From positions 1-32,413 of the forward strand of contig JAADEI010000129.1 of NCBI GenBank assembly GCA_013153515.1: DNA of 32,413 bases. Direction: 5' to 3'. Numbering within the stretch: the stretch's first letter is position 1; each line of letters starts with the position of its first letter. Source of the DNA: Chlorobiota bacterium (GTDB lineage Bacteria; Bacteroidota; Bacteroidia; JAADEI01). Shown in pieces: positions 10,720 to 11,665 of this stretch. The notes under the pieces are model-generated. The model saw only the letters and a program-made list of their open reading frames with translations. It did not search any database and was not told where the DNA came from. The position numbers were made by a program, and so were the translations under genes.

Positions 10720-10820
10720 TTTTAGTGGTCTTATCTATCCGTATTATTATTTCAAGAAGCACCCAAAGAAAAAGCAAACATTCTTCACAGTTTTTAGTTG
10801 GACCCTGAGTACATTGTGTT

Positions 10821-10941
10821 TTTTAGGTCACAGAGTGCCTCAGAGTTAAAACGGAGTTCTACGGAGTTTTCATTAAATTTCTCTACCCTATTCAATACTC
10901 TGTGTCCACTGTGCATAACTCCGTGTTCATTGTGGTTAAAA
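10821..10941. repeat. Inverted pair of arms, each four ACTCYGTG-like units spaced 10-11 nt
   Basis: Reverse complement of 10821-10867: ACTCCGTAGA ACTCCGTTTTA ACTCTGAGGC ACTCTGTGACCTAAAA. Plus strand 10897-10941: ACTCTGTGTCC ACTGTGCATA ACTCCGTGTTC ATTGTGGTTAAAA. Confidence 0.8.
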
Positions 10942-10980
10942 GGAGAGAGAGGTTCATTACAAGGGTTTGTTGATATGTCT

Positions 10981-10988
10981 TAATTTTG
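10981..10988 (+). promoter_or_regulatory. -7 element TAATTTTG for ktrA-like gene, 5 nt before the start codon
   Basis: taattttg-atact-ATG. Confidence 0.55.
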
Positions 10989-10993
10989 ATACT

Positions 10994-11665
10994 ATGCGGT
11001 TGAGATATGCAGTTATTGGACTTGGGAGTTTTGGCAGGGCAGTGGCGGTCAAGCTCGCAGAGGAAGGAGCAGAAGTCCTTGCAATAGATAAGAACGAAGA
11101 ACGGGTTGAGGAAATTAAAGACTTAGTGGCGACAGCTGTTGTTGTGGATGCCACGGAAGAGAAAGCTTTGAGGGCTCTGGAATTAGATCAGATGGATGGG
11201 GTAGTCGTAGCAATAGGCAAGACATTTGAAGACCTTATCCTCGCCACCGTCCATCTGCTTAACATAAACGTCAAAAGGCTTATAGCACGGGCATTTAACC
11301 AAACACAACGTATGATTCTTGAGAAACTGGGGGTTCATGAGATTGTGTCACCAGAAGAAGACGCCGGCAAAGCATTGGCAGAAAAACTGCTTCACCCAAC
11401 GTTTAAGGCTTACATTCCCTTGCCCGGCGGATATGAGATAGTGGAGATTGAAGCACCGCCCGGAATAGTGGGACGCTACGTTAAAGATATAAATTTCATT
11501 GGAAAGTATAACATAACGCCAATCACTGTGAAGAGAAAAAATGAGAAGGGGGAGTATATTGTTGTGGGATGCCTAAGCCCAAACTTTAAATTCCAAGAAG
11601 GAGACCTTCTTATTATAATGGGACATAAAGATGACATTCAAAGGTTTCTTGAAATTATGGAGTAG
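10994..11665 (+). CDS. ktrA: TrkA/KtrA-type potassium channel regulatory subunit (RCK_N + RCK_C)
   Basis: MRLRYAVIGLGSFGRAVAVKLAEEGAEVLAIDKNEE Rossmann GxGxxG and VVVDATEEKALRAL. Start moved from 10967 to 10994 by homology and promoter position. Confidence 0.92.
   Translation: MRLRYAVIGLGSFGRAVAVKLAEEGAEVLAIDKNEERVEEIKDLVATAVVVDATEEKALRALELDQMDGVVVAIGKTFEDLILATVHLLNINVKRLIARAFNQTQRMILEKLGVHEIVSPEEDAGKALAEKLLHPTFKAYIPLPGGYEIVEIEAPPGIVGRYVKDINFIGKYNITPITVKRKNEKGEYIVVGCLSPNFKFQEGDLLIIMGHKDDIQRFLEIME

Follow-up and report, generated by a model that had tools for sequence, protein, structure and literature searches.

A solitary inverted array of helically phased units upstream of ktrA, probably a gene-less member of a family of elements enclosing GxxExxY nuclease genes

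The array upstream of ktrA and its copies in the genome

The window analysed here, a stretch of 32,413 nucleotides (positions 1 to 32,413 of contig JAADEI010000129.1 of a Chlorobiota bacterium), contains upstream of ktrA an array of short units in two inverted arms, and the question is whether this array is a chance sequence, a structure or binding site serving ktrA, or a copy of something mobile. A first-pass annotation, made from the letters alone, had described four units per arm at a spacing of 10-11 nt around a spacer of about 29 nt, and direct reading confirmed this layout: the left-arm units (...GAGT) end at 10836, 10846, 10857 and 10867 (spacing of 10, 11 and 10 nt), the right-arm units start at 10897, 10908, 10918 and 10929 (11, 10 and 11 nt), and the 29 nt between the arms are AT-rich. 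The units of both inverted arms, 10-11 nt apart, are of the CACAGAG type, and the outer ends read ACCTAAAAAA on the left (reverse complement) and GGTTAAAA on the right. The parts of the locus are as follows.

10820..10942, plus strand: whole solitary element (left arm, spacer and right arm); 103 bits with the family model, about 40 further copies in the genome
10821..10867, minus strand: left arm of four units with outer end TTTTTTAGGT, from direct reading; conserved among copies
10868..10896, no strand: 29-nt AT-rich spacer, conserved between copies as seen in their alignment
10897..10941, plus strand: right arm with outer end GTGGTTAAAA, from direct reading; one module here, one to three in other copies
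10767..10819, plus strand: what may be left of a decayed adjacent module; weak (model match of E = 0.18 only)
10943..10999, plus strand: ktrA promoter-proximal DNA outside the element, partly conserved in the congener G001, which lacks the element, from orthologue comparison

The array is not a chance sequence, since the element recurs about 40 times in its own genome (G000; 2.2 Mb in 146 contigs, 94.6% complete). Reading the stretches around the matches, of which BLAST gave 49 and a family model 70 (partial and antisense ones included), we located the element at about 40 distinct places, essentially all intergenic. The array pattern gave six matches, compared with none for a reversed control, and the unit spacing over the copies peaked at 9-10, 21 and 30-31 nt, corresponding to a period of 10.5 nt. 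The claim that this is a dispersed element was thus borne out, and the checks that had been proposed with it (copy number, 10.5-nt periodicity and orthologous sites) were positive. The window itself holds only one good copy by family-model search (103 bits, E = 1.7e-31, the copy being itself among the training sequences of the model), besides the weak stub at 10767-10819, which may be the end of a decayed adjoining module.

Alignment of the copies gave the family consensus TTTTTAGGTCACAGAGTnnCACAGAGTnAAAACnGAGTnnCACAGAGTTTTTATTAAATTTnTTnnTCCTnTTTAATACTCTGTGTCCACTGTGCnTAACTCTGTGTACACTGTGGTTTnAAAAA, in which the left arm and the spacer are single and conserved and the right arm consists of one to three modules of about 45 nt; the description of four plus four units therefore stood, but the variable number of right-arm modules and the conservation of the spacer had been overlooked. 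The element is common to G000 and G001 at other loci, where the flanking DNA is about 75-89% identical, and both unit number and unit spacing have changed at the loci where the two genomes carry it. Its distribution is patchy, with no element detected by the family model in G003 and G004, and convergent gene pairs are mildly enriched at the copies (12/27 vs 18/79, p = 0.047). Judged from the copies, the arrays of this genome would represent an old insertion family that is decaying and changing by modules.

Other repeats were observed next to some copies. At two contig ends (L022 at the end of G000:C61 and L015 at the end of G000:C113), an insertion sequence (IS) with an IS110-like N-terminus (QNVGIDVSKSSFEA) lies inside an array copy; the two ends have about 40 bp of the IS end in common, and a 42-bp array piece is present on both sides, as if duplicated. 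Adjoining sequence is also held in common by the copies L003, L021 and L027 (G000:C84, C138 and C124) and by L012 and L026 (AACAAGTGGGG / TTTTGGGG and GGATTGCGATGTGGGCTTTCT), indicating that other repeats or ISs abut the arrays, and contigs often break at such places.

Two further suggestions of the first-pass annotation did not hold. One was that the arms form a cruciform or hairpin: in predicted folding the window copy does not surpass shuffled sequence (z of 0.19 as DNA and -0.13 as RNA), arm-to-arm covariation is absent from the alignment of copies (one of nine consensus pairs with two-sided change), and Rfam gave no credible match for the element, so that a hairpin, cruciform or structured RNA was discarded. 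The other was a binding array regulating ktrA. The gene is kept in two congeners, G001 and G002, where the array is absent, and a conserved regulator of ktrA was rejected on this ground. The DNA just before ktrA is conserved in G001 (window ATTACAAGGGTTTGTTGATATGTC, G001 ATTACAAAGGGTTTGTTGATATGCC) and the upstream neighbour of ktrA is a different one, which places the element at a synteny break (window 10720-10999, between ktrA and an esterase-like gene, genes that are on separate contigs in G001). The binding of protein to the phased units, as had been predicted, is plausible, and the best candidate for such a protein is not a regulator of potassium uptake but the GxxExxY nuclease that arrays of this kind enclose elsewhere.

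GxxExxY genes between inverted arrays

The GxxExxY genes (NCBIfam TIGR04256, Pfam PF13366 PDDEXK_3) were suspected to have such arrays as their flanks, and the link was tested on genomes and on loci. Of 198 genomes sampled from the class, 50 contained at least six CACARAG pairs, and PF13366 was present in 48 of these and in 81 of the 148 others (Fisher p about 1e-8, uncorrected for relatedness and genome size). The array-rich exceptions were the genome of the window copy and G031, in which (L047, L108) some repeats are spaced about 150 nt apart.

Flanks were read at 30 loci of the class and at 80 further loci from GTDB genomes, spanning Bacteroidota, Chloroflexota, Acidobacteriota, Planctomycetota, Verrucomicrobiota, Pseudomonadota, Ignavibacteriota, two archaea and others. 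The GxxExxY gene lies between inverted phased arrays, usually a few tens of bases from its start and stop. Unit patterns were fixed after the class loci had been read, and the loci were picked by protein score, not by array content; with these patterns, at least three array units were found within 180 nt of 107 of the 110 GxxExxY genes (three viral-contig loci included), in about 13 phyla including Archaea, and at least five units at 85 of the 110, compared with at least three units at 30 of 129 other genes from these loci. Relative to the strand of the gene, units upstream of it ran in the CACAGAG direction 223 times versus 90 in the opposite direction, and downstream of it in the opposite direction 257 times versus 104. 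At the RAYT genes of eleven array-rich genomes, at least three units were found in 4/26 cases and at least five in 0/26, several of these genes being visibly flanked by ordinary REP-like palindromes. The high unit counts at GxxExxY genes and the low counts at neighbouring and RAYT genes indicate that the link is specific.

A plain inverted-alignment score of the gene flanks, which placed 58 of 111 above the 99% level of the control, proved a poor detector because start codons were misplaced and arrays were sometimes tandem, and was replaced by the unit counts. In addition, a motif-free chain statistic was positive on both flanks for 73% of GxxExxY genes, 18% of control genes and 5% of shuffled flanks, in agreement with unit counting but with less specificity.

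Neither Pfam nor a 30-sequence profile revealed a GxxExxY gene in the genome of the window copy (94.6% complete), and none was found in the sampled congeners G001 and G002 (assemblies 93-95% complete). The window copy can thus be no more than a non-autonomous derivative. Its spacer occupies the position of the GxxExxY gene in gene-bearing elements, as well as that of a deletion scar in G098 (see below), and contains no recognisable trace of such a gene. The family of the window copy has a distinct, longer consensus and outer ends of its own, and its model matches arrays of other families, including the cluster that encloses the GxxExxY gene of G033.

Several peculiarities were seen at individual loci. 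In five genomes (L071, L076, L081, L194 and L201), the gene end ahead of the GxxExxY gene is the same (FGREGGxHGL, presumably that of an aldehyde-dehydrogenase-like gene), and at several of these loci the GxxExxY gene also precedes a gene of like type; the site is possibly a hot spot or an old insertion. At L086, L094, L235 and L253 the open frames extend into the upstream array and have odd N-termini (RTQGTQ, HRQDAKSARDRKR), and the annotated start codons of GxxExxY genes may often be wrong. At L041 (893-1551, G016:C109), a tandem series of five to six complete elements, each about 120 nt long, resembles a small satellite.

The GxxExxY proteins are about 125 residues long, with a single domain, and form a family of their own (TIGR04256/PF13366). 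Residues E32, D72, E82-x-K84 and Q96xxxY100 were invariant in 30 of 30 proteins, and a pattern of D, ExK and QxxxY is that of RecB, Cas4 and lambda exonuclease. The AF2 model is confident (pLDDT 96.4). Among solved folds it comes nearest to those of lambda exonuclease, LHK-Exo and SSO0001, at modest E-values of 6e-3 at best, and weak Cas_Cas4 profile matches occurred in 16 of 74 members; no relative by sequence was found in the PDB, and no PHROG was matched. By its residues and modelled fold, the protein is predicted to be an intact Cas4/RecB-like PD-(D/E)XK nuclease. It is nearly absent from mobile replicons, with no match in 50,697 phage records, three loci on viral contigs, and eight matching records among 72,556 of plasmids, several of these eight being very large replicons; a phage or plasmid origin was rejected for this reason. 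A catalogued defence system was likewise rejected, PADLOC giving a single weak Cas4 score. In the open-licence PMC literature, we found no paper on the function of GxxExxY/PF13366, on the repeat or on the combined system.

Joint history of gene and arms, and loss of the gene

The arrays fall into several letter classes (CACAGAG, CGCAAAG, CACGAAG, CACAGAT, CACGAAA, ACAGGAT and others). Placed on the protein tree, the choice of CAC or CGC required 9 changes compared with 23.7 in shuffled data (minimum 19), the core letters 18 compared with 30.6 (minimum 26) and the broad letter class 8 compared with 13.8 (minimum 12), whereas phylum labels required 26 changes among 79 loci, compared with 35.2 when shuffled. 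The letters thus follow the protein tree, with phylum much more scrambled, as would be expected if gene and arms travel jointly between distant hosts. Co-inheritance alone would give this agreement, and recognition of the arrays by the nuclease is not proven by it.

Presence and absence could be compared at related sites. For example, at one site between convergent genes, gene and arms are present in G124 and G154, and neither is present in the congeners G092, G056 and G012; G056 also lacks another gene-bearing element of G124 and has a half-array in its place. In G033, three other contigs carry gene-less copies of the four-unit arm that lies beside the gene, about 84-91% identical to it. Within one genus, G062 has a GxxExxY gene enclosed by arms of CGCAAAG units; in G098, the orthologous site shows both arms around ATGAATGAAAATGAATTATAAATAATTTGTGA, in which the first codons of such a gene (MNENE) are fused to its last codons (INNL-stop). 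Read from this scar, the ends stayed and the gene was lost, and the G098 copy would represent a gene-less array in the making, formed as MITEs are. A wider scan with one spelling of the scar listed 38 matches, near the control level, and among the loci fetched arms were present only at the G098 scar. No target-site duplication was seen, the intergenic DNA at the empty sites examined being too diverged, and the pattern of presence and absence could partly reflect loss. As a separate observation, a different inverted 11-nt array (GAGTGGCGAGTAGCGAGTG) occupies the site of the G124 GxxExxY element in G056 (L272, about 2200-2330, G056:C49), possibly another array family on the same convergent site.

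Known systems, rival explanations and a possible mechanism

In RAYT/REP and REPIN systems, many short intergenic copies are moved by a single small nuclease encoded between repeat copies (PMC3116915, PMC3686654). The arrays described here are similar in their short intergenic copies, in the small nuclease gene between repeats and in their inverted pairs, but hairpins are the substrate of RAYT, an HUH/Y1 tyrosine enzyme, whereas the partner here is of the PD-(D/E)XK type and the repeat does not fold. RAYT/REP was rejected as an identity for the element, as it is no palindromic hairpin and the Y1_Tnp genes carried at least three units in only 4/26 cases and at least five in 0/26; in addition, no Y1_Tnp gene was found in G000 or G001. 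Like MITEs (reviewed in PMC10969869), the window family is a multicopy, short, non-coding element with inverted ends, and internal deletion of an autonomous element was seen for the related G098 element; unlike MITEs, it has no DDE-type or other known transposase, and its ends are helically phased arrays. Target-site duplications were not seen in the too diverged DNA of the empty sites examined. The GxxExxY protein resembles Cas4, RecB and lambda exonuclease, including solo-Cas4 (PMC5704561), in active-site pattern, nearest folds and weak Cas_Cas4 matches, but differs as a single domain of about 125 residues, of its own family, encoded between phased arrays with no cas genes seen to be involved. 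The multicopy families of direct or palindromic repeats in Geobacter genomes, for which no explanation, enzyme or mechanism was given (PMC2700814, PMC2996986), are by description like the window arrays in being multicopy and intergenic.

Because arrays of this design enclose GxxExxY genes, and because at one orthologous site both arms survive around a scar of the gene, the window array is best read as an old, non-autonomous derivative: it is probably a gene-less copy of a mobile family built as inverted phased array, GxxExxY nuclease gene and inverted phased array. An alternative is that the arrays are dispersed repeats in their own right, which spread by other means and into which the GxxExxY gene copies itself in the manner of a homing endonuclease. 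Small single-domain nucleases without any recombinase are typical of homing endonucleases, and GxxExxY is such a protein; arrays also outnumber genes in most genomes, and one site of G056 retains a half-array where G124 has the gene. Homing is nevertheless unlikely, in that three congeners lack array and gene alike at a site where two have both, the G098 scar gives the direction from gene to solitary array, and no other mover was found, RAYT genes being unflanked by arrays and absent from G000 and G001.

It is still less probable that the arrays of the window genome resemble the ends of GxxExxY elements by convergence and belong to a different mobile system of the genus. They have the unit letters, phasing, inversion and AT-rich middle of GxxExxY arrays, and the model of this family detects arrays around GxxExxY genes elsewhere, even though the gene is absent from the three sampled genomes of the genus and the family has its distinct longer consensus and outer ends. 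A host-serving array, whose phased units would bind a regulator, nucleoid or terminator factor and whose link to GxxExxY would be secondary, might be argued from the 10.5-nt phasing, which suits protein binding on one face, from the mild enrichment of convergent gene pairs (12/27 vs 18/79) and from the persistence of some copies at orthologous sites of G000 and G001; yet ktrA orthologues lack the array, orthologous sites differ in unit number and spacing, the element is missing from G003 and G004, and one nuclease family is specifically enclosed across phyla, which leaves this reading with very little probability.

For the mobile family with an enclosed nuclease gene, array structure, gene-array link, joint history, presence/absence, deletion derivative and intact active site are directly supported, and the nuclease as driver of movement is what we infer. 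Several nuclease molecules would occupy an arm, each bound to one helical turn and all on one face of the DNA, and would cut at or near the arms; the element would then spread by repair from a copy elsewhere or through a replication-fork event. Deletion of the gene would leave solitary arms, which the nuclease could move in trans, and with loss of the last gene, apparently in this genus, the arrays would remain as fossils, their module number being altered thereafter by slippage and recombination.

Since neither the enzyme nor the architecture of the ends fits any mobile-element class named or found, these elements may be of a new kind, unless the nuclease is a mere passenger, and the family seems to be undescribed so far. 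On balance, we lean towards regarding GxxExxY nucleases, together with their inverted, helically phased arrays, as a new class of autonomous mobile element in many bacterial and archaeal phyla, moved by a Cas4/RecB-like PD-(D/E)XK nuclease and host repair without a known transposase or recombinase, whose gene-less derivatives would be the intergenic repeats of CACAGAG/CGCAAAG type that stand unexplained in environmental genomes. Among the environmental genomes sampled, short phased arrays of the CTCTGTG-like kind occur widely, and the GxxExxY family is annotated without a function, so that with a link between them the repeats acquire an origin and the protein a role. Should the nuclease drive the spread, this would be a mobile system without a known class of transposase or recombinase, similar to RAYT-REP in its working but unrelated to it, and would bear on the part that Cas4/RecB-type nucleases play in genome invasion and DNA integration.
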